Shown: positions 19,876 through 33,509 of the stretch, piece after piece | Layout of the letters: every line of letters begins with the position of its first letter | Numbering within the stretch: the stretch's first letter is position 1 | Assembly: GCA_001899065.1 (NCBI GenBank) | Contig: MKUZ01000030.1 | Span: forward strand, 141,521-205,520 | Direction: 5' to 3' | DNA length: 64,000 nt | Origin: Devosia sp. 66-22 | GTDB taxonomy: Bacteria; Pseudomonadota; Alphaproteobacteria; Rhizobiales; Devosiaceae | Made by a program: the position numbers and the translations under genes | Notes under the pieces: model-generated | The model's database searches: none | What the model was told of the DNA's origin: nothing | What the model saw: the letters and a program-made list of their open reading frames with translations, nothing else

Positions 19876-20940
19876 TCAGCTCGAGGGCGTCAGCTCCGCC
19901 TTCATCACATATGTGTTGTACGGCCCAAACTGGTTCATGACATAATAGAACGTCAGTCCATCGTCCGAAATCCACGACTGCGTCATGTAGGCATTGTAGG
20001 CCTGTGCATAGTCCGAGCCGCGGGCCAGCGTCGCCGGCGCCGACCACGGCCCCTCCGGGCGGTCGGCAAACCTGATCTCGAGCTGCAGCGCCAGCTCGTT
20101 GAGCGTGGTGTACATCCACTTGCCGATGCCCTGGTTCCACACCAGCGAGCCTTCGCCCACGCCCGGCTTGATCACCTCGGCCGCCTGCGCGCGATCGGCA
20201 ACCCAGGCCGCGCCGTCCCAATATTCCCAGGCCGCATTGTCCTGCACCTTCTGCGTGTCGACGCGGCCCACCCGGGCCCCGTTGAAGCGGCCGCAGGGGG
20301 TGCCCACGGCATAGACATATCTGCCGTCCTCATTGCCCGTGCCGGCCTGCGCCGACAGTGCCAGCATGTTGAAGCTCGACTGGAAGGTGCCGAAATCGCT
20401 GACGCCCTTGTCCCAGCTCTTGCCGCCATCCGTGCTGGCGATGAAGCGCGACGAATTGCACAGCCACACCCCGCCCATGTTCGCAAAGCCATGCACCGAC
20501 ATGTAGTGGAGATAGAGCGTGTCGCCCACGGCCACCATCGCGGTCGGGATCTTGGTCTGCTCGCTCGAGAATTTGAGCATGTGCTGCCCAGGCGCCGCCT
20601 CGATCGCGGTGCCATCCTCGCCGGTGAACCAGCCCTCGATCGCAATGCCGTCCGAGGGGTCCTTGTCCGTCGTCATGGCGATCACATTGGAGCGCCAGTT
20701 GGGCCCGAACTTGGGGCAACTGTCGCCCTGCCAGCCGAACGTGTCGCCGAACGCGATGACGATCGTGCCGTCGATCTCGGCCATGGTGCCGAGGTCGGTG
20801 CCGCAGATGTCGGGTGCCTTCATGTCGACCGGGGCATTGGGTCCGGTCAGCGCTTTCACCAGCGTCGAGGTGGCCGTATAGTCCTGCGCGAGCGCAGGCG
20901 ACGATGCGATCAGCGCGAGCGCTGCGGCGAACAGTTTCAT
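19876..20940 (-). CDS. DUF4185 exported protein, GH183 endo-D-arabinofuranase-like
   Basis: 354 residues. Clear Sec signal peptide (MKLFAAALALIASSPALAQ, cleavage after about residue 18), so periplasmic or secreted. The mature part has the DUF4185 beta-propeller pattern: GTDLG (Asp49) and FGDTFG (Asp66) at the first blade, then repeated strands such as FIASTDGGKSWD and TFYYVMNQFGPYN. DUF4185 was founded as glycoside hydrolase family 183, endo-acting on D-arabinan of mycobacterial cell walls; the paired N-terminal Asp residues are candidate catalytic residues. I use the ATG at 20940, not the longer upstream frame. It sits 10 bp after the ATPase gene of the sugar-import locus. Activity is inferred from family and context. 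Confidence 0.72.
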   Translation of the reverse strand: MKLFAAALALIASSPALAQDYTATSTLVKALTGPNAPVDMKAPDICGTDLGTMAEIDGTIVIAFGDTFGWQGDSCPKFGPNWRSNVIAMTTDKDPSDGIAIEGWFTGEDGTAIEAAPGQHMLKFSSEQTKIPTAMVAVGDTLYLHYMSVHGFANMGGVWLCNSSRFIASTDGGKSWDKGVSDFGTFQSSFNMLALSAQAGTGNEDGRYVYAVGTPCGRFNGARVGRVDTQKVQDNAAWEYWDGAAWVADRAQAAEVIKPGVGEGSLVWNQGIGKWMYTTLNELALQLEIRFADRPEGPWSAPATLARGSDYAQAYNAYMTQSWISDDGLTFYYVMNQFGPYNTYVMKAELTPSS

Positions 20941-20950
20941 TGAACGATCC

Positions 20951-22069
20951 TCACGCGATGTGCTGCAGATAGTCGTCGGTCCACGCCCGCTTCGGCTGCA
21001 GCGTCTTGCCGCTGCCGTCGAACACATGCGCGAACGCATCGGGGATGTCGAAGCGCACCGTCTCGCCGGCCTTGGCCCCGAGGATGCCGCGCATCGTGGC
21101 CGTCAGCGGATCGCCGCCCGCCGTGCGTGCATGGAGCACCGTCTCGGCGCCCAGCACTTCCGTCGACGCGATCTCGGCGGCGAGCGCGCCCGAACTGCTG
21201 CCTACAAGGTGCTCGGGCCTGATGCCTACCGTCACCGCATCGCCAGCTGCCGCCTTGCCCTCGCGCGGCGACAGAGTGACCGTCGGTCCGCCCTTGTCGA
21301 GTGCGATCACCAGCCGCTCGCCACTCTCGACGATCTTGCCGGCAAAGAAATTCATCTGCGGCGCGCCGAGAAAGCCCGCCACGAACTGGTTGGCCGGCCG
21401 CGCATAGAGCTCGACCGGCGCGCCGGCCTGCTCGATCACCCCCTCACGCAGCACCACGATCCGGTCGGCCATCGTCATGGCTTCCACCTGGTCGTGCGTC
21501 ACATAGATCATCGTGGTGCCGAGCCGGCGGTGCAGCGCCGCGATCTCCGAGCGCATCTTGACGCGCAGCTCGGCGTCGAGATTGCTGAGCGGCTCGTCGA
21601 ACAGGAACACTTTCGGCTCCTTGACGATGGCGCGGCCGATCGCGACGCGCTGGCTTTGCCCGCCCGAGAGCTGGTTGGGCCGCCGCTTGAGCAGATGGCT
21701 GATCTGGAGGATATCGGCGGCCTTCGCCACCCGTGCCTTGATCTCGGCCTCCGGTGCGCGCTGGTTCTCGAGCCCGAAGCGCAGATTCTCCTCCACCGAC
21801 ATATGCGGATAGAGTGCGTAGGACTGGAACACCATCGCCATGCCGCGCGCCGCCGGCAGCAGATGGTCGCAGCGTTGCCCGTCGAGCCAGATCTCACCGG
21901 CTGAAGTCTCTTCCAGCCCCGAGATCATCCTGAGCAGCGTGGACTTGCCGCAGCCCGAGGGGCCCACAAACACCGTGAAGCTGCCGTCGGTCACGGTCAG
22001 GTCGATGCCGTGGATCACTTCCAGGTTCTGGAAGCTCTTGCGGACCTGCTTGAGTTGAAGCTCGGCCAT
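20951..22069 (-). CDS. Sugar ABC transporter ATPase, UgpC/MsmX-type
   Basis: 372 residues. Walker A GPSGCGKST, Q-loop VFQSYALYPHMSV, signature LSGGQSQR, Walker B VFLFDEPLSNLDA, switch VTHDQVEAMT, then a TOBE/MalK-type regulatory domain with VGIRPEHL. It is the only ATPase for two sets of CUT1 permeases in this locus (24648-26400 and 30542-32351), so it may serve both, as MsmX-type ATPases do. The ATG at 22069 lies 2 bp from the GH116 stop; the upstream extension of the frame falls inside GH116 and is rejected. Confidence 0.88.
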   Translation of the reverse strand: MAELQLKQVRKSFQNLEVIHGIDLTVTDGSFTVFVGPSGCGKSTLLRMISGLEETSAGEIWLDGQRCDHLLPAARGMAMVFQSYALYPHMSVEENLRFGLENQRAPEAEIKARVAKAADILQISHLLKRRPNQLSGGQSQRVAIGRAIVKEPKVFLFDEPLSNLDAELRVKMRSEIAALHRRLGTTMIYVTHDQVEAMTMADRIVVLREGVIEQAGAPVELYARPANQFVAGFLGAPQMNFFAGKIVESGERLVIALDKGGPTVTLSPREGKAAAGDAVTVGIRPEHLVGSSSGALAAEIASTEVLGAETVLHARTAGGDPLTATMRGILGAKAGETVRFDIPDAFAHVFDGSGKTLQPKRAWTDDYLQHIA

Positions 22070-22071
22070 TG

Positions 22072-24630
22072 TCAGCCCCCAATCCTGATCGATGCGCTGT
22101 CGCCCGCAGCCAGCGTGCGTCCTACCTTCGCCCTGGTCCCGGCAAACGACAGGGTATCGAGTGCCAGCGTTCCGTAGCGCACTTCGAGCGTCGCTTCGTT
22201 GCCTTTGCGCGTCACCACGCCCCAGCCGTCGCCCACCGACCACAGCCAGGTGCCGTCGCCGCCGCTCACGGGGTCGAAGCCGATGGCGCCCTTGGTCAGG
22301 TCGTAGCTCAGGCGCGACCACGCATTGACCAGCGCGAAGCTCGACATCGAGCGGGCATAGTAGCTGCCGCATTCGATGTCGTTCCACGGATTGCGTCGGT
22401 GCCCGTCATGCCGCGCCCGCGCCGAGCCGACGATGGCCAGTCCCTCGTCCACCAGTCCGTGCAGGATCATGTGCGAGGCGACCGCATATTCGATGCCGGT
22501 CCACACTTCCTCGGAATAGGGCGCCGGCACCGCCGGCTTGCTCGTTCCCTCCGGCCAGGTGGCAATCAGCACGCCGCCCTCGTCCTCATAGGCATAGACG
22601 CGGCACGGATTGAAATGGTCCGCCAGCGTCGGCCGATAGTTGTGCCGGTGGATGGCGCCGAGCGCCGCCGTCACCTTGTCCCCATCGAGGAACGCCGGCA
22701 GGCCGCAGAGGTCCGCGTGCCACTGCCCGAGGATCTGGTCGCTCGCACAGCCGTCGCCGAACTGGTACTTCATCTGGCCGTATTCGTCCGACCAGTACGT
22801 CTCCATGAAGCCGTCGGCCAGCACGCCCACCTTGCCCTCGGCATTGTGGAAGCGTTCGACCAGCGCCTTGTCGCCGAGGTCGGTCGACTGGATGAAATAG
22901 GCGCCGTTGAACAGCTCGCCGTTGAGCGCCGCCGCCCCGGCGTCGCCCATCGTGTCGAGTTCCACCGCAAACACCGCGTCGCCTGCCGCCCGCGCCATCT
23001 CGGCGCCGGCCTTCAGCGCCGCCACATACATCGTCGACAGCCACGAGTTCGGCCCGAACAGCTCCATGTCGAGCGTATGGTGCTGCCGGCCCCACAGGAT
23101 GCCGGTGCGGTCGGGGTCCCACTGGTCCGGATTGTCCGCGGACCACGCATATTCGAGCGCCGTCCGCACCTTCGGCCAGAGGCCCTTGAGCCAGTTCGTA
23201 TCGCCGGAAATCTTCCAGTCGCGATAGGTCTTGATGATCGAGCCGAACTGCCCGTCCGCGCATGGATTGAGCGGGAAGAAGCCCGATCCCAAAGGCACGA
23301 TCTGCCGGAAGGTCAGCCCGCCATTGGGCAGCTGGTTGTAGGCATAGTCGGTGTCGCGCAGCGAGCGCTCCAGCGCCGGGAACAGATAGGGCAGGGTCTG
23401 CTGGTAGTTCCACACATGCGTGCAGCTCCCCTCGCAGCTTCCATCGCCGGTGAACTGCCCCTCCCACGCCCAGAACTCGCCGTTCTCGAGCCGGATCACC
23501 GTCGCCGTGCGCAGGATGCTCATCGTGCCCTGTACGGCATCGACGATGTCGAGCGGCAGCGTCGTGCCGAACAGCGTGTCGCGGAAGGCGAAGGTCGGCG
23601 CGCGCAGCTCGTCCCAGCGCGCAAAGGCCTCGGCCAGCACCGCGGATGAATCCGTCCACTGGCTCGCATAGTAGTTGCGCCAGGTGCCGGTCTCGCCGTT
23701 CACCGCATTGGGCCGCCAGTAGACCTGCCCCACCGGGAAGTGCCACGCCATGGCGAAGCGCACGCGCCTGGTCTCGCCCGGCGCGACACGGATGCGTGCC
23801 GCGACCGTGCCGTGCTCGGGCTGGTCGAACATGTTCTTGTTGAGCCGGGGCGTCTCGTAGTGCCGCTGCGGCAGCCGTCCCGCCTGCGCGAATTCGCGCC
23901 AGAACAGATTGAGGTCGTCGAACCACTGCCCGCGGAAATGGTAGTCCATATGGTCGACATCGTCGGCATCGGTGGCGATCGTCAAGTCGCCGCGCTGCCA
24001 GTCCGGCAGCTCTTCGCGGGCCGTGAGGTGCAGTGCCTTCACCGCACCATCGTGGAACGTATGCACGCCGTTCTGGCAGCCATGGTTCCCCAGCGTGCCG
24101 CCGATCGTGTAGTCGATCGCCGCGCTGCCGGTATTGGTCACCTCGATCTCGAACATCGCCGCCGGCAGCGAGCTGTCGCGGTCGTTGGTCGGAATGAACG
24201 GGCTCCACGCCACGAGCCGCACCTGGCCGGGAAAGCGCTCGTCATGGAAATCGAGCTCGGCGACGGGGAAGCGCCCGGTGAAGGTCACCGCCTTGAAGTG
24301 CGGCACGCCAGTCAGCGTGTTGCGGTTCGCCCCCCAGCCGAAGCCGTCGAAGAAGCGCCGCGTCGTCGGCGATCCCGTCGGTACGCCCTCATACGGACCG
24401 TTCAGCACGCGCGCATCCAGCACCTTGCCGTCCTGCTCCGCCTTGATCGCGAAGTGGCTGTAGCCATTGAAGCTCTGCAGCCCCGGCCGGTTGCGGATCG
24501 ACCAGTCGACCAGCCGCCCGCTGCCCGAAATGGCGAGCCCGCCTGCGCCGATCCCGCCCAGCGGGAAGGCGATGTGGCGCGCGCGGTCGCCCCCATAGAC
24601 GAAGCGTGGGTCAGGCGCGGGGCTGGTCAT
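22072..24630 (-). CDS. Glycoside hydrolase family 116 protein (GBA2-like)
   Basis: 852 residues, no signal peptide, so probably cytoplasmic. N-terminal beta-sandwich starting near RHIAFPLGGIGAGGLAISG (residues 16-34), typical of GBA2-like proteins, and a C-terminal (alpha/alpha)6 barrel. LDMELFG (Asp521) matches the acid/base region of GH116, and CEGSCTHVWNY (Glu400) the nucleophile region; exact catalytic assignments need alignment. The family holds beta-glucosidases and, in Microbacterium arabinogalactanolyticum, an exo-beta-D-arabinofuranosidase that works with GH183 and GH172. Its position between the transporter permeases and ATPase says it processes imported oligosaccharides. ATG at 24630; the long upstream extension overlaps the permease gene and is rejected. 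Confidence 0.82.
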   Translation of the reverse strand: MTSPAPDPRFVYGGDRARHIAFPLGGIGAGGLAISGSGRLVDWSIRNRPGLQSFNGYSHFAIKAEQDGKVLDARVLNGPYEGVPTGSPTTRRFFDGFGWGANRNTLTGVPHFKAVTFTGRFPVAELDFHDERFPGQVRLVAWSPFIPTNDRDSSLPAAMFEIEVTNTGSAAIDYTIGGTLGNHGCQNGVHTFHDGAVKALHLTAREELPDWQRGDLTIATDADDVDHMDYHFRGQWFDDLNLFWREFAQAGRLPQRHYETPRLNKNMFDQPEHGTVAARIRVAPGETRRVRFAMAWHFPVGQVYWRPNAVNGETGTWRNYYASQWTDSSAVLAEAFARWDELRAPTFAFRDTLFGTTLPLDIVDAVQGTMSILRTATVIRLENGEFWAWEGQFTGDGSCEGSCTHVWNYQQTLPYLFPALERSLRDTDYAYNQLPNGGLTFRQIVPLGSGFFPLNPCADGQFGSIIKTYRDWKISGDTNWLKGLWPKVRTALEYAWSADNPDQWDPDRTGILWGRQHHTLDMELFGPNSWLSTMYVAALKAGAEMARAAGDAVFAVELDTMGDAGAAALNGELFNGAYFIQSTDLGDKALVERFHNAEGKVGVLADGFMETYWSDEYGQMKYQFGDGCASDQILGQWHADLCGLPAFLDGDKVTAALGAIHRHNYRPTLADHFNPCRVYAYEDEGGVLIATWPEGTSKPAVPAPYSEEVWTGIEYAVASHMILHGLVDEGLAIVGSARARHDGHRRNPWNDIECGSYYARSMSSFALVNAWSRLSYDLTKGAIGFDPVSGGDGTWLWSVGDGWGVVTRKGNEATLEVRYGTLALDTLSFAGTRAKVGRTLAAGDSASIRIGG

Positions 24631-24647
24631 GGAAACTCCGGAAGGCG

Positions 24648-25502
24648 TCAATTGCGGATGCCCGAGAACGTCACGCCCTGGATCACCATCTTCTGGGCGA
24701 CGAGGAAGAGCAGGACGACGGGCAGGATGGACATGCTCATGGCGGCCATCACCACCGAGAGATTGCCCTGGCTCATATAGCCGCGCAGCAGATCCATCGC
24801 GATCGGCAGCGTCATCGCCTGCTGGCTCTCGATCAGCGCACGCGGCTGGAAGTAGCTGTTCCACGCGCCGGTGAAGGTGATGATGGCGAGCGCCGCAAGG
24901 GCAGGGCGCAACTGCGGCAGCGAGATGCGCCAGAAGATCTTGAAGTAACCCGCGCCATCCATCAGCGCGGCCTCCTCGAGTTCCTTGGGCTGGCTCCTGA
25001 GGAACTGGCGCAGCATGAACACACCGAAGCTCGAGGTCAGCCCCATCAGCACGAGGCCGAGTGGATTGTTGAGCAGCCCCACCTTGGCGTAGCCCAGATA
25101 GATCGGCAGGATCGTCACCTGCGCAGGGAACATCAGCCCGATCAGCATCACGAAGAACAGGCTGTCGCGGCCGGGAAAGCGCAGCCGTGCATAGGCGAAG
25201 GCTGCTAGCGTACAGGTGACGAGCTGGCCGATCGTCACCAGCACCGCCACATAGAGGCTGTTCCAGTAGATCTTGAGGAACGGCACCGCCGAGTTGAGCA
25301 CCGTCTGGTAGTTGGAGAGATCGAGCGTGGGCGGCAGGAAGCTGGGCGGCATCTTGTAGGCCTCGGCCGCCGGCCGGAACGACATCGAGAACAGCCACAG
25401 GAACGGCATCAGCATCAGGACGCCCATCACCGTCAGCACCGCGATGATCGCGATGTCGACGTTTCGCGCTGCGCGCTTCGTCTGCATGCTGCGGGTCTGC
25501 AT
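24648..25502 (-). CDS. CUT1 sugar ABC permease, MalG/UgpE-like
   Basis: 284 residues, six membrane segments, EAA loop EEAALMDGAGYFKIFWRISLPQLRP. The first helix begins at VDIAIIAVLTVMGVLMLMPFLW, and FSMSFRPAAEAYKMPPSFLPP is the usual MalG-type loop. One base separates it from the partner permease (25504). It forms the importer with the 25504 permease and the binding protein at 26462. Confidence 0.88.
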   Translation of the reverse strand: MQTRSMQTKRAARNVDIAIIAVLTVMGVLMLMPFLWLFSMSFRPAAEAYKMPPSFLPPTLDLSNYQTVLNSAVPFLKIYWNSLYVAVLVTIGQLVTCTLAAFAYARLRFPGRDSLFFVMLIGLMFPAQVTILPIYLGYAKVGLLNNPLGLVLMGLTSSFGVFMLRQFLRSQPKELEEAALMDGAGYFKIFWRISLPQLRPALAALAIITFTGAWNSYFQPRALIESQQAMTLPIAMDLLRGYMSQGNLSVVMAAMSMSILPVVLLFLVAQKMVIQGVTFSGIRN

Positions 25503-25503
25503 C

Positions 25504-26400
25504 TCAGGCCTCCACGAGGCGGCGCGAGCCGACGAGTTGGATGATGGTGACGATCAGCACCAGCAGCATCATGACTACGGACACTGCTGCGGCATAACCG
25601 AGCTCGAATGAGCCGAAGGCTTCGTCGACGAGGTAGATCGAGAGCGAGCGCGTCGAGTCGCCCGGACCGCCGCCAGTGAGGATGGTGATCGATTCGAACA
25701 CCTGCAGCGCGCCGATCGTGGCGAACACGATGCAGAAGAACAGCACCGGCGAAATGTAGGGCAGGGTGATGCGCGAGAAGCGTCGCCAGGGCGAGGCGCC
25801 GTCCATCGAAGCGGCATCCATGATCGGCTGCGGCACGCCTTGCAGCGCGGCGACCAGGATGATCATGAAGAACCCGGTGTTCTTCCACACATCCATGATC
25901 ACGATCGAGGTCATGGCGACCTTCGATGAGGTCAGCCACGGCACCGCCGGCAGGCCCAGCACATTGAGGTAGTAATTGATCACGCCGAAATCGACGGCGT
26001 AGAAATAGCTCCACACGACCGCCACGAAGGCCGCCGAGATGATCACCGGCAGGAAGAAGGCGAGGCGGAAGAAGTAGAGCAGCCAGCCCGGCATGGCGCG
26101 GTTGAGTGCCAGCGCCAGCAGCAGGCCGACGAGCACGTTGCCGGTCACCGCGAAGAACGCGAAGCGCAGCGTGTTCCAGAAGATGGTGATCGAGCGGCTC
26201 TCGCCGAAGAAGCGCTGGTAGTTCTCGAACCACACCCAGTCGGCGCCGAAGCTGATGTCGTAATAGGTGAAGCTGAGCACGATCGTGATGGCGACGGGCA
26301 CCAGCACGAACAGCGCGTAGAGCACGAACGAGGGCACCACGAACAGATAGCCCGCGCGCATCTGTGCTTTGCGTAGATCTGACAGTCGCCGCTTGGCCAT
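25504..26400 (-). CDS. CUT1 sugar ABC permease, MalF/UgpA-like
   Basis: 298 residues. Begins MAKRRLSDLRKAQMRAGYLFVVPSFVLYALFVLVPVAIT, with a basic cytoplasmic start then the first helix; the EAA-equivalent is PIMDAASMDGASPWRRFSRITLP. The Shine-Dalgarno GGAG lies 6 bp upstream, just after a strong hairpin that separates it from the binding-protein gene. Partner of the 24648 permease. Confidence 0.88.
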   Translation of the reverse strand: MAKRRLSDLRKAQMRAGYLFVVPSFVLYALFVLVPVAITIVLSFTYYDISFGADWVWFENYQRFFGESRSITIFWNTLRFAFFAVTGNVLVGLLLALALNRAMPGWLLYFFRLAFFLPVIISAAFVAVVWSYFYAVDFGVINYYLNVLGLPAVPWLTSSKVAMTSIVIMDVWKNTGFFMIILVAALQGVPQPIMDAASMDGASPWRRFSRITLPYISPVLFFCIVFATIGALQVFESITILTGGGPGDSTRSLSIYLVDEAFGSFELGYAAAVSVVMMLLVLIVTIIQLVGSRRLVEA

Positions 26401-26417
26401 CGTGGGCTCCAGTTAGG

Positions 26418-26447
26418 TGTCCATGCCGGGCGGACCCGGCATGGACA
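26418..26447 (-). terminator. Strong stem-loop after CUT1 binding-protein gene
   Basis: A 13-bp perfect inverted repeat (arms at 26418-26430 and 26435-26447, TGTCCATGCCGGG and its complement) with a 4-nt loop, 15 bp after the binding-protein stop and before the permease. There is no T-run, so a partial terminator or mRNA-stabilising 3' hairpin is more likely than full termination. Confidence 0.65.
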
Positions 26448-26461
26448 GTCCCGGGGGAGGA

Positions 26462-27718
26462 CTACTGTGTGACGCGCTTGAGGCGCTCGAACGAGCGGGT
26501 CAGTTCCTGGTCGGCGGCAGCCACCGCGTCGGGAATGGACATCTCGTCGGTCATGATGGCCTGGAAGTAGCGCATGAAGATCTGGTCCACTTCCTGGAAG
26601 TTCGCGGGCGAGGGCACGGCCTGGGTGCTCGGCAGCGTCTCGTAGTAGAGCGGCGCGCTCGGCGGGAACTTGAGGAAGCCCTCGGTCTCCGCTGCCGACT
26701 TGCGGCCCGGCACGGCGCCGCCGAGGTCGCCCTCGGCCACCTGCGTCTCATAGGACAGCAGCTCGGTCACCAGCGCCTTGGCGAGGTCGACATTCTGCGA
26801 CTTCGACGAAATGCCGTAGGCGCCAAAGCCGATCACCGTGTTGTTGTTGACGCGGCCCGGCTGCACCGCAATGTCCATGTCGAGGTTGGACGAGATCGCG
26901 TTCTGCACGATCCAGTGGCCGCGCGAGATCATCGCGATCTGGCCGGCAAAGAACTGGTTCTCGACGCCCTCCTGGCCCACCTGCGGCGACACCTTCCGCA
27001 CATGGATCAGGTCGTAGAGGAACTGCAGCGTCTCGGCGACCTTGGGGTCGGTCATGTTCGAGGCGGTCCAGTCGGCGGTGATCGGCGAGGTGCCGTTCGA
27101 GAAGAACCACGGCATCAGGCCGAAGAAGAAGTTGGGCACTTCATAGCCGAACTGGGTGACGTTGCCGCTCGCATCGCGCTTGGTCAGCTTCTCGGCCACA
27201 TCGGCGAACTCTTCCCACGTCCAGGTCTTGCTGGGCGTGTCGATACCGGCCTCCTTGAACAAAGCACGGTTGTAGTTCGTCATGATGTTGTTCCACGTCG
27301 AGGGGATGAAGTACGTCGTCCCCTTGTACGCAGTCAGCTCGAACAGCTTCGGGTCGAAATCCTCGAAGTCGGCATTGCCTTCGATGAAGTCGGTGAGCGG
27401 GATGAACATGTCGCGCGCCGCAAAGCTCTGCAGCGTCTCGACCGCCGTGTGGTACACGTCGTACTGTTCGCCGGCATTATACTGCTGCAGCACGCGGCTC
27501 ACGAAGTCGCCCCAACCGCCGCTGATCGGATCGACGCCGAGTTCCACCTCGACATTGGGATAGTCTTCGTTGAAGCGCGCGATTGCGTCCTGCGTCGCCT
27601 TCACCTGGGCTTCGCCACCGAAGGTCATCAGGCGGAGCTTGGCGCTCACATCCGACTGCGCCCAGGCGGGCGCGACCATCGCGGTAGCGAGCAGTAGGCC
27701 CGCCAATATCTTCTGCAT
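26462..27718 (-). CDS. CUT1 sugar-binding protein (first of two)
   Basis: 418 residues, Sec signal peptide (MQKILAGLLLATAMVAPAWAQ). Mature protein starts KLRLMTFGGEAQVKATQDAIARF, the usual type-1 extracellular binding-protein opening; VEVELGVDPISGGWGDFVSRVLQQYNAGEQYDV is the first-lobe signature. It feeds the 24648/25504 permeases and is divergent from the LacI gene at 28011, with three tandem 12-bp repeats between. The ligand is probably an oligosaccharide released by the DUF4185 enzyme; this is inferred. Confidence 0.86.
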   Translation of the reverse strand: MQKILAGLLLATAMVAPAWAQSDVSAKLRLMTFGGEAQVKATQDAIARFNEDYPNVEVELGVDPISGGWGDFVSRVLQQYNAGEQYDVYHTAVETLQSFAARDMFIPLTDFIEGNADFEDFDPKLFELTAYKGTTYFIPSTWNNIMTNYNRALFKEAGIDTPSKTWTWEEFADVAEKLTKRDASGNVTQFGYEVPNFFFGLMPWFFSNGTSPITADWTASNMTDPKVAETLQFLYDLIHVRKVSPQVGQEGVENQFFAGQIAMISRGHWIVQNAISSNLDMDIAVQPGRVNNNTVIGFGAYGISSKSQNVDLAKALVTELLSYETQVAEGDLGGAVPGRKSAAETEGFLKFPPSAPLYYETLPSTQAVPSPANFQEVDQIFMRYFQAIMTDEMSIPDAVAAADQELTRSFERLKRVTQ

Positions 27719-27945
27719 AATCCTTGTCCTCCGTTCGCCGGCCCTTCCGGCATAGTTTCACCGTTCGCGAAGAACGGCGTTTCACGCGTCCTCGCGTCGA
27801 AAATGGGCGTCTCCACCCCGGACCCCGCCTAGAGCTGGCGACGGACTCGGTCGAATCTCCCGTAAGCCACTGTGATCGTTGTCAAATCTCCATCACTTGC
27901 GGGCTGGACCCGTCTTGTGGCTGGCAAAACCATAGCAACTCTGAA

Positions 27946-27981
27946 TGCATTTGCAAATCCATTCACAAATGCATTTACAAG
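27946..27981. promoter_or_regulatory. Three tandem 12-bp repeats with embedded palindromes (LacI operator region)
   Basis: TGCATTTGCAAA, TCCATTCACAAA and TGCATTTACAAG abut exactly (27946, 27958, 27970). They contain the perfect palindromes ATTTGCAAAT (27949-27958) and AAATGCATTT (27967-27976), centres 18 bp apart. The tract is A/T-rich within GC-rich DNA and lies 29 bp before the LacI start codon, in the divergent intergenic region of 292 bp (27719-28010), whose remaining part shows nothing distinctive. It is a likely operator array for the LacI protein and both CUT1 operons. Confidence 0.55.
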
Positions 27982-28010
27982 CGAACGGCGATCTGGTTAC
28001 CCCTATTGTC

Positions 28011-29015
28011 ATGAGCACCATCTCAAAGGTCGCAGAAAGGGCCGGCGTCTCCCGCACCACCGTGTCGCACGTGATCAATCACGCCGACCGCGTGTCCAAG
28101 GAATTGCGCGATCGCGTCAACGCCGCCATCGAGGAGCTCGGCTACGCCCCCAATCCGCAGGCGCAGAGCCTGCGCACCGGCCGCACCGACATGATCGCCG
28201 TGCTCATCCCCGATATCGGAAACCCGTTCTACACCGAAATCGTCAAGGCGGCGCAGGATGGCCTCGAGAAGGCCGGCCTCGAGGCGCTGGTCTACAACAC
28301 CGACGTTCCCGGCGGTCACTGGCAGACGCATGGCCGCGACTATCTGCGCCAGCTCAGCCGCAAGCGCGTCGACGGTCTCGTCGTCGGCGAGTTCGCGCTG
28401 CACGGTATGGACGAGGAGCTTGCCCGGCTCGATACGCCCACCGTGTTCATCGGCCACCTGCCCAGCAAGTCCGTCGATAGCGTGCATTTCGACGATTATG
28501 GCGGCGGCTATCTCCTGGGCGAGCACCTGGCCAGGCGCGGCCACACCCGCGTTGTCGAGGTCACCGGCCCCGCCTTCTTCAAATCCGCCATGGCGCGCGC
28601 CGACGGCTTCGAGAAGGGCCTCGCCGACAATGGCGTGCGCTTCACCACCAAACAGCGCTTCGAGGGCAGCTATCTCCCTCCGTCCGGGCAGGAGGCGGCA
28701 CGCTGGATCGCCTCGCTCACCGGCAAGGACCGGCCGACCGCCGTGTTCTTCGGCAACTACCTCATGGCCATGGGCGCCCTCGCCGAGTTTCACGACCGCG
28801 GCATCCGCATTCCCGACGACATCGCCGTCGTCATCTTCGGCGATCTGCCGCAGCTCGAATATGTTCGCCCCCGGCTCACCCGGGCGGCCGAGAATCCCGG
28901 AGTGCTCGCGCGGCGGGCCACGGAGATGCTGCTCGAACGTGTCAACGGCACGTACGACGGTCCACCACGTTCGGAGGTCATTCCCTGCCGGCTCCAGATT
29001 TTCGAGTCGAGCTGA
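28011..29015 (+). CDS. LacI-family transcriptional regulator
   Basis: 334 residues. N-terminal LacI helix-turn-helix (STISKVAERAGVSRTTVSHVIN, residues 2-23) with hinge region LGYAPNPQAQSLRTGRT, then a periplasmic-binding-like effector domain (MIAVLIPDIGNPFYTEIVKAAQ...). The ATG at 28011 is the one directly before the HTH; ATGs upstream lie within the tandem repeats. It is divergent from the first CUT1 operon and 85 bp upstream of the second, so it probably controls both, with a D-arabino-sugar as possible effector. Confidence 0.9.
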   Translation: MSTISKVAERAGVSRTTVSHVINHADRVSKELRDRVNAAIEELGYAPNPQAQSLRTGRTDMIAVLIPDIGNPFYTEIVKAAQDGLEKAGLEALVYNTDVPGGHWQTHGRDYLRQLSRKRVDGLVVGEFALHGMDEELARLDTPTVFIGHLPSKSVDSVHFDDYGGGYLLGEHLARRGHTRVVEVTGPAFFKSAMARADGFEKGLADNGVRFTTKQRFEGSYLPPSGQEAARWIASLTGKDRPTAVFFGNYLMAMGALAEFHDRGIRIPDDIAVVIFGDLPQLEYVRPRLTRAAENPGVLARRATEMLLERVNGTYDGPPRSEVIPCRLQIFESS

Positions 29016-29100
29016 GGAGGGGCCTTCCAACATCAGACGCGGCTGGCTCGGGGGAGGCGGTCGCGGGACGACGACACCAAACGCTCCAAGGGAGGAAGCG

Positions 29101-30432
29101 ATGATTACGACGTCCAACATGCCGTCGGGCTGGTCCCGGCGGTCGATCCTCAAGGCGGGCACCGCGCTCGCCGCCGCGACGGGCCTCGGCGGACTGCCGA
29201 TGCGTGCCTTCGGCCAGGACGACACGCTCCATTTCTGGCAGTTCTACGCGCCGGATGGTGGTGTGAAGCCGCAGGTCGACTGGTTCACCAAGATGGTCGA
29301 CGACTGGAATGCCAAAAGCGAGACCAAGATCACGCTCGACTACATCGTCGACTATACGAACGGCACGGCGCTGCAGACCTCGTTTGCGTCGAACCAGGGG
29401 CCGGACATCTTCCTGATCTCGCCCGGCGACTTCCTGCGTTACTACAATGGCGGCGTGCTGCTCGACCTCACGCCCCACATCGCGCCCGAAGCTCAGGCCG
29501 ACTTCCTTGAAGGGGTCATCGCCTCGCGTAAGGTGGACGGCAAGATCTATGGCATCCCCATGGAGCTTGAGCCGATGGCCTTCTACTATTCGGTCAAGGC
29601 CTTCGAGGATGCGGGTCTCAACGAGAACGATGTTCCAAAGACCTGGGACGAACTGCTCGAGATCGGCAACAAGCTGACCACGGCCGATCGCTATGGCCTG
29701 CTGTTCGAGACGACACCCGGCTACTACCAGAATTTCACCTGGTATCCGTTCATGTGGCAGGGCGGCGGCGAGTTCCAGGGCGCCGATGGCAAGAGCGCGT
29801 TCGACTCGCCGGGCGTCGTGGCGGCGTTGAAGCTCTGGCAGGACGCCATCAATTCCGGCGCGGCGCCGCGCCAGGTCAACAGCGGCGGCTGGGACGTCAC
29901 CGCCAATCTGGGGGCCGGGTACTGCGCCATGCAGAACGTCGGCATCTGGGGCATCTCGGCGATGGACAACAACGCCCCCGACGTTCCCTACGGCATCTTC
30001 AAGCTGCCGAGCCCCAAGGATGGAAAGTATGTGAGCGTCGGCGGCGGCTGGGCATTCGTCGCCAACGCCAAGGGCAAGAATCCCGAGGCCGCGGCCAAGT
30101 TCATCGCCTGGGCCCTCGGTTCGATGGAAAAGGACTCCATCCAGCGCCATGTCGATTGGTGCACCGTCGCAAAGTCCGACATGCCCACCCGAAAGAGTGC
30201 GCTGGAGCAGGGTGCGGAGGCGTTCAACAAGGGCAATCTCGGCGTCTTCAGCAGGGATATTCTGCCCGGCGTCCGTGCCGAGCCGCGCCTCCCGCCCGAG
30301 GTCTACAAGATCATCTCGGACGCTATCCAGGCAACGCAGCTTGGCGGTGCCGACCCGCAGGCGACGGCAACGGCCGCCAGCCAGCAGCTCGACGCGTTCC
30401 TTGCCACCTATAGCGGCGCACCGATGATGTGA
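29101..30432 (+). CDS. CUT1 sugar-binding protein (second)
   Basis: 443 residues. Tat-type leader (WSRRSILKAG, residues 11-20, then a hydrophobic stretch to AFGQDD). Mature start LHFWQFYAPDGGVKPQVDWF; first-lobe loop SNQGPDIFLISPGDF. The ATG follows GGGAGGAAGCG. It is not a close copy of the 26462 binding protein (Tat instead of Sec leader, different openings), so the two systems probably take different oligosaccharides. Two hairpins follow the stop before the permease genes. Confidence 0.86.
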   Translation: MITTSNMPSGWSRRSILKAGTALAAATGLGGLPMRAFGQDDTLHFWQFYAPDGGVKPQVDWFTKMVDDWNAKSETKITLDYIVDYTNGTALQTSFASNQGPDIFLISPGDFLRYYNGGVLLDLTPHIAPEAQADFLEGVIASRKVDGKIYGIPMELEPMAFYYSVKAFEDAGLNENDVPKTWDELLEIGNKLTTADRYGLLFETTPGYYQNFTWYPFMWQGGGEFQGADGKSAFDSPGVVAALKLWQDAINSGAAPRQVNSGGWDVTANLGAGYCAMQNVGIWGISAMDNNAPDVPYGIFKLPSPKDGKYVSVGGGWAFVANAKGKNPEAAAKFIAWALGSMEKDSIQRHVDWCTVAKSDMPTRKSALEQGAEAFNKGNLGVFSRDILPGVRAEPRLPPEVYKIISDAIQATQLGGADPQATATAASQQLDAFLATYSGAPMM

Positions 30433-30439
30433 GGACGCG

Positions 30440-30471
30440 GGACCGCAGCGGACGTCCAGCCGCTCCGGTCC
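30440..30471 (+). terminator. First stem-loop after second CUT1 binding-protein gene
   Basis: GGACCG-C-AGCGG pairs with CCGCT-C-CGGTCC: 11 bp with one C-C mismatch and an 8-nt loop, 7 bp after the stop. No T-run. Likely a partial terminator or stabiliser, inferred. Confidence 0.55.
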
Positions 30472-30480
30472 TCACGCAAG

Positions 30481-30502
30481 CCGGCGGGCTACGGCTCGCC
30501 GG
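30481..30502 (+). terminator. Second stem-loop after second CUT1 binding-protein gene
   Basis: CCGGCGGGC and GCTCGCCGG form a 9-bp stem (one G-T pair) with a TACG tetraloop, 9 bp after the previous hairpin and 40 bp before the permease ATG. Confidence 0.5.
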
Positions 30503-30541
30503 TACCCCCGGAACCCCATATCTCGGCCACTCAGGTCCGCC

Positions 30542-31501
30542 ATGACGATGCAATCCGCAGGAAACGCGAATTCGATAGCTACCGGCGCCGTCGCCCGGCC
30601 GCGCGCTGCCGGGCTCAGCGTCAAGCACCGCGAATGGATCGCGGGCTATCTGTTCATCGCGCCGGATTTCCTGGGGCTGGTACTGTTCATCGGCGTGCCG
30701 ATGATCCTTGCGCTGACGATGGGCTTTTTCAACGTCAACGGGTTTGGCGCCTTCACCTTCGTCGGCCTCGACAACCACAAGAAGATGCTGATCGACCCGA
30801 CGTTCTGGCAGTGCCTCAAGGTCACGTCGGTCTACGTCGTGCTCATCGTGCCGGCGCTCTATGTCAGCGGCCTCGGGCTGGCGCTGCTGGTCCAGCGCAC
30901 CAACCGGTTCAATACCGTCATGCGCGCGATGTTCTTTGCGCCGCAGATGGTGAGCCTCGTCGTCATCGCCGTGGTCTGGCAGCTCATGAGCGCCGACAAG
31001 CAGGGCATCATCGCCCGCGCATTGGCCACCATCGGCGTGACCAATCTCTCGCTCCTCGGCAATCCGAATCTGGCCCTCTACACCGTGGTTTTCGTCACCG
31101 TGTGGTTCTCCATGGGCTTTTACATGATGATCTTCCTCGGCGGCCTTCAGGATATCCCCAGGGAGTACTACGAGGCGGCCGAGATCGACGGCGCCGGCCG
31201 CGTGCAGCGCTTCTGGCACATCACGTTTCCGCTCCTGCGGCCGACGAGCTTCTTCATTCTTCTCACCTCGCTCGTCGCAGCGGTCGCGGGGTCGCAGGCC
31301 TTCGACCTCATTTACGTGATGACCAAGGGCGGACCCGCCAACGCAACACAGGTCATTGTCGTCTACATCTATCAGCAGGCCTTTCAGTTCAGCGCCTTCG
31401 GCTATGCGGCGGCGATGGCCTCGATCCTCGTGCTCATCCTGCTGCTGGTCACCGGCGTCCTCTTTCTGCTGACGCGTGGCGGGCGCTTCTCCTATGAGTG
31501 A
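30542..31501 (+). CDS. CUT1 sugar ABC permease, MalF-like (second system)
   Basis: 319 residues, six membrane segments after a cytoplasmic leader (about residues 1-35, to KHREWIAG). EAA loop YYEAAEIDGAGRVQRFWHITFPLLRP. Its stop lies inside the start of the next permease (8-bp overlap), so the two are translationally coupled. It has no ATPase of its own in the operon. Confidence 0.88.
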   Translation: MTMQSAGNANSIATGAVARPRAAGLSVKHREWIAGYLFIAPDFLGLVLFIGVPMILALTMGFFNVNGFGAFTFVGLDNHKKMLIDPTFWQCLKVTSVYVVLIVPALYVSGLGLALLVQRTNRFNTVMRAMFFAPQMVSLVVIAVVWQLMSADKQGIIARALATIGVTNLSLLGNPNLALYTVVFVTVWFSMGFYMMIFLGGLQDIPREYYEAAEIDGAGRVQRFWHITFPLLRPTSFFILLTSLVAAVAGSQAFDLIYVMTKGGPANATQVIVVYIYQQAFQFSAFGYAAAMASILVLILLLVTGVLFLLTRGGRFSYE

Positions 31502-32351
31502 GAGCACGCTGGGCGGCGGCGCGCTGCTGGGGCGCAAGCAGGTCGACACGGTCCGGCTCGTCTGGATGCTGGTGGCGCTCGTCCTCGCGCTGATGACGGT
31601 CTTCCCGCTGTTCTGGATGATCTCGATCGCCTTCAAGCCGGCCGCCGAAGTGTTCAGGCCCAACATCCTGCCGGTGGCCCCGAGCTGGGACAATTTCCTC
31701 TACGTGCTGACCGAGGTGCCGTTCCTCAAATATCTCGGCAACACCTTCTTTGTGTCCGCGGTGGTCACCGTCGTCGCCTTGTTCTTCCACACGATGGCGG
31801 GCTACGCGCTGGCGCGGCTGCGCTTCCCGGGTCGCGAGACGATCTTCATCCTCATCTTTTCGACCTTTCTCGTCTCGCTGCCGGTGATCATCGTGCCGCT
31901 CTTTATCCTGGTGCGCGCGATGGGGATGCTCAACACCTATGCCGGCATCATCGTGCCGGCGATCTTCCATGCCTTCGGTATCTTCCTGTTGCGCCAGTAC
32001 TACCTCTCGCTGCCGCGCGAACTCGAAGAGGCGGCCCGGATCGATGGTGCCGGCTATTGGCGCATCTACTGGAGCGTGGTTCTGCCCCTCAGCCGGCCGA
32101 TCCTTGCCTCGCTCGCTATCCTGTTTTTCCTCGCCAACTGGAACTCGTTTCTCTGGCCGCTGACCGTCGCCAGCAACCAGGACCTGTGGGTCGTGCAGGT
32201 TGGCATCGCCAATTTCCGCGGCCAGTACGCGACCTCCTGGCACTACATCATGGCGGCGTCGACCATCGTCGCGCTGCCCATGCTTATCCTCTTCGTGATC
32301 TTCCAGCGGCAGATCATGGATTCCATCAAGACCAGCGGCCTCAAGGGCTGA
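31494..32351 (+). CDS. CUT1 sugar ABC permease, MalG-like (second system)
   Basis: 285 residues, six membrane segments, EAA loop EEAARIDGAGYWRIYWSVVLPLSRP, and the MalG-type loop ISIAFKPAAEVFRPNILP. The start ATG at 31494 overlaps the previous gene by 8 bp; a longer start at 31476 is less likely. Followed 24 bp later by the DUF2961 gene. Confidence 0.88.
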   Translation: MSESTLGGGALLGRKQVDTVRLVWMLVALVLALMTVFPLFWMISIAFKPAAEVFRPNILPVAPSWDNFLYVLTEVPFLKYLGNTFFVSAVVTVVALFFHTMAGYALARLRFPGRETIFILIFSTFLVSLPVIIVPLFILVRAMGMLNTYAGIIVPAIFHAFGIFLLRQYYLSLPRELEEAARIDGAGYWRIYWSVVLPLSRPILASLAILFFLANWNSFLWPLTVASNQDLWVVQVGIANFRGQYATSWHYIMAASTIVALPMLILFVIFQRQIMDSIKTSGLKG

Positions 32352-32375
32352 ACGACAACCAACGGACCAAGCATC

Positions 32376-33509
32376 ATGACCACCAGCTTCAACGGCCTCG
32401 GCGTCAACCTCTCCAACATCTACCGGCTGAGCGCGGCCAGGACCCGCTCCATCTCGCCCGAGAACTTCACCGGCGAGAAGGGCAGGGGCGGCATGGCCAC
32501 CGAGGGCACCGGCGCCATTCATGCGCGTGGCCTCGGTCCCGACGGCAGCGGTCAGGGCTGGAAGGTCTCGCCCTCGATCCGCATCGAGCCGGGTGAGAAG
32601 CGCGTCCTCGCCGACATCCGGGGCATGGGCGCCATCCAGCAGATCTGGCTCACCACCGCCAACCTGCGCTGGCGCAGCCTCATCATCCGCATGTGGTGGG
32701 ACGACCAGGAGCATCCCTCGGTCGAAGCGCCGCTTGGCGACTTCTTCTGCTCGGGCTGGGGCCAGTTCGCGCAGGTCACCTCGCTCGCCGTCTGCGTCAA
32801 TCCCGGCCGCGCCTTCAACTGCTACTGGGAGATGCCCTTCCGCAAGGCGGCGCGCATCGAGATCGAGAACACCGATCCCAGCGATTTCGGCATCATCTAT
32901 TACCAGATCAACTACGCCCTCACCGACGTCCCTGAGGACGCCGCCTATTTCCACGCCAAGTTCCGCCGTACCAACCCGCTGCCCTTCGGCACCGACTACA
33001 CCATCATCGACGGTATCAAGGGGCGCGGCCAGTATGTCGGCACCTACATGGCCTGGGGCGTCAACAATGCCGGCTGGTGGGGCGAGGGCGAGATCAAGTT
33101 CTTCATGGATGGCGACAAGGCCTTCCCCACCATCTGCGGCACCGGCACCGAGGACTATTTCTGCGGCGCCTATAATTTCGACGGCGGCGTCGTCGATGCC
33201 ACCATGGACAGCCGCTACCGCGAGTTCACCACGCCCTATGCCGGCCTCCCGCAGGTGCTGCGTCCCGACGGGACGTATCGCAGCCAGACCCGCTTCGGCA
33301 TGTATCGCTGGCACCTCACCGACCCGATCCGCTTCGAATCGGACCTGCGCATCACCATCCAGGCGCTGGGCTGGCGCACCGAAAAGGCCGATCGGCGCCG
33401 CTATCTGCCGCTCCAGGACGACATCGCCTCCGTCGCTTTCTGGTACCAGACGCTGCCCAGCGTACCGTTCGAGCCGATGCCGCATCCCGATCAGCTCGAG
33501 GTTATCTAG
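32376..33509 (+). CDS. DUF2961 protein, GH172 (exo-alpha-D-arabinofuranosidase/fructofuranosidase-like)
   Basis: 377 residues, no signal peptide, so cytoplasmic. DUF2961 signature GTGTEDYFCGAYNF places Glu259 where the GH172 nucleophile sits, and Glu283 in YREFTTPYAGLPQVL is a candidate acid/base. GH172 includes alpha-D-fructofuranosidase/difructose-dianhydride enzymes and exo-alpha-D-arabinofuranosidases active on mycobacterial arabinan. Last gene of the second CUT1 operon. Together with DUF4185 and GH116 in the same locus, the D-arabinan reading is favoured over fructan. Which furanoside it cleaves is inferred. Confidence 0.82.
   Translation: MTTSFNGLGVNLSNIYRLSAARTRSISPENFTGEKGRGGMATEGTGAIHARGLGPDGSGQGWKVSPSIRIEPGEKRVLADIRGMGAIQQIWLTTANLRWRSLIIRMWWDDQEHPSVEAPLGDFFCSGWGQFAQVTSLAVCVNPGRAFNCYWEMPFRKAARIEIENTDPSDFGIIYYQINYALTDVPEDAAYFHAKFRRTNPLPFGTDYTIIDGIKGRGQYVGTYMAWGVNNAGWWGEGEIKFFMDGDKAFPTICGTGTEDYFCGAYNFDGGVVDATMDSRYREFTTPYAGLPQVLRPDGTYRSQTRFGMYRWHLTDPIRFESDLRITIQALGWRTEKADRRRYLPLQDDIASVAFWYQTLPSVPFEPMPHPDQLEVI

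Follow-up and report, generated by a model that had tools for sequence, protein, structure and literature searches.

A candidate D-arabinan utilization locus in a Devosia-group alphaproteobacterium

Gene content and arrangement of the locus

Positions 19876-33509 of a 64,000-nucleotide stretch of DNA (hereafter the window) from contig MKUZ01000030.1 of the alphaproteobacterium Devosia sp. 66-22 carry 11 genes that probably constitute a LacI-controlled locus for the utilization of D-arabinan, a polymer chiefly known as a wall component of tuberculosis-type bacteria. The host genome (G000) measures 4.36 Mb. The genes form two divergent groups, in which the minus-strand group has the order SBP1-permA1-permB1-GH116-ATPase-GH183 and the plus-strand group has the order LacI-SBP2-permA2-permB2-GH172. 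The features are given below with the basis for each assignment, where SBP denotes a solute-binding protein and ABC an ATP-binding cassette.

19876..20940, minus strand: GH183 (DUF4185), candidate endo-D-arabinanase, 354 amino acids, Sec signal peptide (Pfam, PDB match, residues)
20951..22069, minus strand: MalK/UgpC-type ABC ATPase, 372 amino acids, the sole ATPase in the locus (Pfam)
22072..24630, minus strand: GH116, candidate exo-beta-D-arabinofuranosidase, 852 amino acids, no signal seen (Pfam, residues)
24648..25502, minus strand: CUT1 permease of the MalG/UgpE type, importer 1 (Pfam)
25504..26400, minus strand: CUT1 permease in the MalF/UgpA position, importer 1 (sequence, place and hydrophobic segments)
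26462..27718, minus strand: SBP1, solute-binding protein of importer 1, Sec signal (Pfam)
27946..27981, no strand: operator block, TGCATTTGCAAATCCA palindrome with 12-bp repeats (alignment of eight GH183 loci)
28011..29015, plus strand: LacI-family regulator, 334 amino acids (Pfam, tree)
29101..30432, plus strand: SBP2, solute-binding protein of importer 2, Tat-like signal (Pfam)
30542..31501, plus strand: CUT1 permease, importer 2 (Pfam)
31494..32351, plus strand: CUT1 permease permB2, importer 2 (sequence, place and hydrophobic segments)
32376..33509, plus strand: GH172 (DUF2961), candidate exo-alpha-D-arabinofuranosidase, 377 amino acids, no signal seen (Pfam, residues, tree)

Refinement placed the starts of GH183, the ATPase, GH116, LacI, SBP2 and permB2 at 20940, 22069, 24630, 28011, 29101 and 31494, respectively. 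The start at 28011 was chosen for LacI because the longer open reading frame, beginning at 27945, would read through the operator. In the Pfam scan, which covered one permease of each importer, these two permeases, the ATPase, both solute-binding proteins and LacI all scored above their cut-offs. Export signals were judged from visual inspection and a simple hydropathy scan rather than with SignalP. On this basis GH183 (MKLFAAALALIASSPALA-Q) and SBP1 carry Sec-type signals, SBP2 begins with a Tat-like twin-arginine sequence, and no export signal was seen in GH116 or GH172. The initial annotation of an exported DUF4185 protein, cytoplasmic GH116 and DUF2961 proteins, two CUT1 importers, one ATPase and one LacI regulator was thus borne out at these positions with Pfam backing.

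PDB searches with both solute-binding proteins recovered oligosaccharide binders of many kinds, which do not name a ligand. The same holds for the arabino-oligosaccharide binder 6rjy, which is among the top five matches of each. The locus is flanked by a saccharopine-dehydrogenase-like gene and a gene for a protein with TPR repeats, neither of which shows a tie to sugar use.

Catalytic and specificity residues of the three enzymes

The GH183 protein scores 238 bits against the Pfam DUF4185 model (cut-off 39.5), and its top PDB matches are two entries for EndoMA1 (E 1e-39), an enzyme whose active-site residue roles are described in PMC10509167. Residues D49, D66, E263 and R218 correspond to EndoMA1 D33, D51, E243 and R198, such that the catalytic D/D/E set is kept, and EndoMA1 Y293 is likewise conserved. 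The initial annotation would have been abandoned had DUF4185 lacked its catalytic Asp residues, both of which are present. We therefore consider this protein a candidate endo-D-arabinanase, with its activity predicted from these matches. In a sister genus (G035; L010, positions 1456-1662), a remnant-like sequence matches the C-terminus of the window GH183 over 75 residues (54%).

GH116 matches the Pfam models for the N-terminal domain (175 bits) and for the catalytic DUF608 domain (131 bits), and is 37% identical to ExoMA2. It scores 421 bits against ExoMA2 versus 69 bits against the best beta-glucosidase, in a comparison by bit score. Residues E390, D521, H405 and R442 correspond to ExoMA2 E431 (nucleophile), D557 (acid/base), H446 and R483 (a His and an Arg specific for arabinofuranose, Araf), respectively, and all four are kept in the window protein and in 17 further GH116 proteins that were aligned. 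According to PMC10509167, His446 and Arg483 distinguish ExoMA2 from TxGH116, a beta-glucosidase with Asp and His at these sites. By both residues and bit scores, the window protein fits GH116 subfamily 4, to which ExoMA2 belongs, and not the beta-glucosidases; placement with the latter was what the initial annotation had named as a reason to discard its proposal. A GH116 of 34% identity that retains the four key residues lies beside a 67% identical GH172, in divergent orientation, in an Armatimonadetes metagenome-assembled genome (L056, 7540-11080); the pair of exo-enzymes is found again in this remote phylum, but there the importers of the Devosia locus were not seen.

GH172 scores 331 bits against Pfam DUF2961, shares 58% identity with ExoMA1 across 349 aligned columns, and scores 424 bits against ExoMA1 versus 132 bits against the fructofuranosidase alphaFFase1. 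Both catalytic Glu residues are present, as is the equivalent of ExoMA1 Asn253. This Asn occupies the site where the fructose enzyme has Gly (Gly299), and it blocks fructose. In a tree of 34 rows (rows from 19 of 80 relative loci plus 15 others), the window protein falls on the ExoMA1 side, which is split from the alphaFFase1 side at 100/100; the branch of ExoMA1 itself is long (96/65), and the program issued a warning about long branches meeting. The suspicion that GH172 might group with fructofuranosidases was therefore not upheld.

The relatives were gathered by scanning genome contigs, and the best 80 of at least 586 were taken (64-90% identity). They come from Bradyrhizobium, Chloroflexota, Planctomycetota and others, spanning many phyla, and the closest named relative among the matches listed is from Devosia sp. 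Root413D1 (90%). A survey of the Asn site in 81 rows from these 80 loci gave Asn in 69, Asp in eight, Gly in two, Cys in one and a gap in one. Conservation of this Asn is so common that it is no marker of D-arabinan loci. Two more GH172 copies reside in the host genome itself near other transporter genes (L115 on contig C22 and L116 on contig C20; 71% and 60% identity to the window GH172, respectively).

Conservation and modular construction

GH183 exceeds the Pfam cut-off in nine of 136 Devosiaceae genomes, and a tenth carries a fragment. In wider samples it was found in three of 385 alphaproteobacteria (the host genome and two others with partial matches scoring 54 and 47 bits) and in one of 398 Pseudomonadota, again the host. 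The full 11-gene order is present in six of the nine Devosiaceae genomes (the host, G010, G011, G014, G015 and G017), and G011 carries an extra GH172 of the DgGH172c-like type within its locus. The repetition of this order in five further genomes of the same genus is more than chance would give. Importer 2 is absent from G004 and from G837, and is therefore dispensable; the GH172 of G837 groups with DgGH172c, and the locus of G003 is split over contigs. In all eight genomes with adequate contigs, GH183, GH116, importer 1, the ATPase, LacI and some GH172 occur together. Among 19 genomes of the same genus, both GH116 and GH172 are present somewhere in the genome in 8/8 with GH183 versus 2/11 without it (one-sided Fisher p = 6e-4, relatedness ignored). 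Eight plasmid records carry GH183-like genes (best 31% identity) and five carry GH116-like genes, with no overlap between the two sets.

Parts of the locus also occur separately. A GH116 module, comprising SBP1-permA1-permB1-GH116-ATPase with a different kind of LacI, stands alone within the stretches examined from G008, G010, G011, G013 and G014 and from a Sinorhizobium plasmid, whose SBP gene is split in two (L103, L110-L113 and L118; GH116 identity 61-63%). A GH172 module, comprising GH172, an importer and LacI, stands alone in G008, G012 (at a contig edge), Kaistia, Bauldia and Mesorhizobium (L012, L013, L018, L109 and L117). In a tree of LacI proteins, the window regulator groups with those of L012, L013, L014-L017, L109 and L117, apart from the regulators of the GH116 modules (17-row fork 87/98, inner forks up to 100/100).

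The operator follows a similar distribution. The block lies in the divergent gap of all eight aligned GH183 loci, in altered form in G015 and G837. A search for TGSATTTGCAAATSCA-like sites with at most two mismatches found the TTTGCAAA operator beside LacI in L012, L013 and L117 and in L014-L017 (GH172-only loci), whereas all six GH116-only modules lack it. The level expected by chance is a mean of 0.1 matches per simulated sequence (20 simulations, dinucleotide make-up). These patterns suggest that two import modules were probably combined, with GH183 added, to give the locus, and that the window LacI probably came along with the GH172 module; we infer that this regulator assumed control upon fusion of the modules. 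The history is not clean, however, as the LacI of L018 (Mesorhizobium) sits on a long branch with the GH116-module regulators, and both L018 and L109 lack the operator at the same mismatch limit.

Several neighbours of these modules deserve mention. A protein of about 698 amino acids from the ADP-ribosylglycohydrolase family is found repeatedly, both next to the GH172 module (L109:5719-7815, L013:3381-5486) and near the GH116 paralogue module (L112:15057-17138, L113:277-2358); it may represent a further furanoside hydrolase. In G008, a phage-type integrase adjoins a stand-alone GH116 module (L110:5263-6501), with a D5-type primase further along, and the integrase suggests that the module is mobile. 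A region of G009 (L108, 5297-17718) combines GH116, an alphaFFase1-like GH172, GH32 and an ExoMA1-side GH172, and is possibly a fructan counterpart of the Devosia locus.

Proposed function, polymer source and relation to known systems

In the pathway we propose, GH183 would be exported by Sec, probably to the periplasm, to cleave an alpha-D-Araf chain internally, whereupon the two CUT1 importers, probably with a single shared ATPase, would take up oligosaccharides. Cytoplasmic GH116 would remove beta-D-Araf ends, and cytoplasmic GH172 would trim alpha-D-Araf residues to yield D-arabinose. Other cells would supply the polymer, be it the arabinogalactan or lipoarabinomannan of mycomembrane Actinobacteria or the product of another alphaproteobacterium, for instance a Devosia that makes D-arabinan. 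The families, the catalytic and specificity residues, the conserved linkage and the operator block come directly from sequence; from these we infer the substrate, the compartment of GH183, the sharing of the ATPase, the cargo of each importer and the LacI ligand. The initial annotation had likewise envisaged an outside or periplasmic endo step, import and cytoplasmic trimming, which the GH183 signal, the signal-free GH116 and GH172 and the importers support, and its choice of D-arabinan is backed by the residues and placement of all three enzymes.

Several observations weigh against this proposal. Identity between GH183 and EndoMA1 is only 35.5%, and of the eight active-site positions listed, three carry substitutions (W138 to F, P141 to G and L292 to A in EndoMA1 numbering). 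No D-arabinose catabolic enzyme, isomerase and kinase included, was found among the locus genes scanned, and a FucI-family isomerase is absent from all 19 genomes searched, the host included. No outer-membrane importer was seen in the locus, and the two secretins of the genome both score below the type II cut-off. Stand-alone GH116 modules imply that GH116 may act on other beta-D-Araf glycans. GH183 was present in none of the 80 GH172-relative loci (both flanks at least 5 kb in 52), and GH116 lies near GH172 in only two of them (L011 and L056), the other 78 having none within the available flanks. The 10-kb flanks are too short to reach GH183 in a fused locus such as L011, and the missing SBP1 and GH116 are therefore the better sign. 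The role of this widespread GH172 clade may thus be broader, and GH172 taken alone is weak evidence for D-arabinan use. All of the enzyme activities are predictions from sequence.

Candidate operons for making D-arabinan occur among relatives. Strong DprE1-like genes (E 1e-60 or better) were found in 17 of 136 Devosiaceae, none of them a GH183 genome, and in 43 of 385 alphaproteobacteria. Nine such regions were inspected, seven belonging to the 17 Devosiaceae and the remaining two to different families within the order. UbiA, DprE1-like and DprE2-like genes occur together in eight (L131-L134, L136-L138 and L140), the DprE2 match of L132 being cut by the contig end, and no DprE2 was seen in L139. 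In the Devosiaceae genomes G844, G876 and G825 (L136, L137 and L138, respectively), the UbiA-GtrA-DprE1-DprE2 genes precede two or three that encode related proteins. The three of these further proteins tested from G876 are polytopic, and four tested from such operons have 6-9 hydrophobic segments. PDB profile searches with eight gave no match up to E 10, and Pfam gave none for the two scanned (L104; L137:12864-14282). From place and topology, one might guess that they form a new family of membrane glycosyltransferases. The UbiA protein of G876 has a HAD domain, and a fused UbiA-HAD enzyme is described in PMC11127046. The DprE1-like and DprE2-like proteins tested fall under the NCBIfam equivalog cut-offs; in L104 and L137, the DprE2-like protein instead scores above the threshold of a general SDR (short-chain dehydrogenase/reductase) model, and the sugar is therefore not certain. 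The L136-L138 operons are nonetheless candidates for D-arabinan synthesis, and similar genes (noeCHOP) have been proposed to provide a D-arabinose precursor in Azorhizobium (PMC2443382). On plasmids of Tateyamaria omphalii (L104, 2064-13011) and Indioceanicola profundi (L105, 7827-13659), GH183 clusters with UbiA, DprE1-like and DprE2-like genes. These clusters possibly serve D-arabinofuranan biosynthesis and include an endo-enzyme of their own, an arrangement that suggests trimming during synthesis.

That the enzymes have been misassigned and the locus serves fructans or beta-glucosides is highly improbable. GH172 does include difructose anhydride enzymes, GH116 includes beta-glucosidases, and in G009 an alphaFFase1-like GH172 lies one gene from GH32. 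However, the window GH172 has Asn rather than Gly at the fructose-gating site and falls on the ExoMA1 side, the window GH116 has His and Arg where a beta-glucosidase has Asp and His, and the locus contains GH183 and, by Pfam scan, no GH32. We reject both readings on the residues and placement of GH116 and GH172. Recycling of a polymer that the host itself makes is also unlikely. Mycobacterial GH183 enzymes have been proposed to modify or degrade their own walls (PMC10115798), but the host has no strong DprE1, the sole marker searched (best 49 bits, none at E 1e-60), and LacI and the importers point to catabolism. The nine GH183 Devosiaceae genomes do not overlap with the 17 that have DprE1-like genes, although exclusion is unproven (P = 0.29 if independent).

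A D-arabinan from other cells is preferred, and for its source two origins compete. Import of fragments released from the arabinogalactan (AG) or lipoarabinomannan (LAM) of mycobacteria and their relatives is a serious possibility, given that the same three families degrade mycobacterial LAM and AG in Microbacterium (PMC10509167). Moreover, GH116 in the operon implies beta-D-Araf ends, which LAM has, whereas the cell-wall-associated polymer reported from Devosia submarina, ->2)-a-D-Araf-(1->5)-a-D-Araf-(1-> (Kokoulin et al. 2021, PMC8707391), is all alpha and offers GH116 no obvious target. However, repeating-unit nuclear magnetic resonance could overlook terminal beta residues, and GH116 modules also occur without GH183. 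A D-arabinan or D-Araf-bearing glycan of other alphaproteobacteria, sister Devosia included, is nearly as probable. This origin draws on the D. submarina polymer, on the clusters of G844, G876 and G825, on the frequency of DprE1-like genes in alphaproteobacteria, and on the position of GH183 relative to donor-like sets, directly adjacent in Indioceanicola and separated by two genes in Tateyamaria, but some of the below-cut-off DprE1-like and DprE2-like proteins may make other pentofuranoses. The mycobacterial substrate of the initial annotation accordingly stands as a possible source and not as an established one, and we leave the source open while slightly favouring mycobacterial-type walls. 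More tentatively, D-arabinan might be a native alphaproteobacterial surface polymer that some Devosiaceae make, using the UbiA-GtrA-DprE1-DprE2 operon and its membrane proteins, and other Devosia eat, in a producer-consumer economy within one family.

The locus is real and conserved, and it most likely degrades D-arabinan. If so, D-arabinan breakdown extends to alphaproteobacteria with a modular, ABC-based architecture, and new enzymes for cutting mycobacterial wall glycans become available. The orphan D-arabinan structure of D. submarina would be tied, within a single family, to candidate genes for synthesis and breakdown, and the question of which organisms produce and which consume D-arabinan outside Actinobacteria would become directly testable.

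Related systems fall on both the biosynthetic and the degradative side. The UbiA, DprE1-like, DprE2-like and GtrA genes of Devosiaceae relatives resemble the decaprenylphosphoryl-D-arabinose pathway, the pentofuranose three-component systems (PMC11127046) and noeCHOP (PMC2443382), but these are biosynthetic genes in other genomes. The mycobacterial GH183 enzymes with a proposed role in their own walls belong to the same family, whereas the Devosia enzyme resides in an import locus. The polysaccharide utilization locus (PUL) of Dysgonomonas gadei (PMC10115798) is also Gram-negative and shares GH183 and GH172, with a GH116 gene noted in PMC10509167; it is, however, from Bacteroidota, the Devosia locus has ABC importers, and the window GH172 groups on the ExoMA1 side and not with DgGH172c. 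The closest parallel is the PUL of Microbacterium arabinogalactanolyticum (PMC10509167), which shares a signal-bearing GH183, signal-free GH172 and GH116, an SBP-type ABC importer and active-site residues, in a comparison that sets regulator and ATPase content aside. As in that PUL, GH183, GH116, GH172 and a sugar importer reside in one locus, but Microbacterium has four GH183 genes where Devosia has one along with two importers, and the Devosia locus is alphaproteobacterial, lacks an isomerase or kinase, and seemingly consists of two separable modules. The view that a transport-linked, Gram-negative version is new holds only in part, as ABC-linked sets from Microbacterium and Gram-negative sets from Dysgonomonas are in print. 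The GH183/GH116/GH172 set is therefore already published, and what is new here is its alphaproteobacterial version, for which we found no ABC-linked precedent in the open-licence literature.

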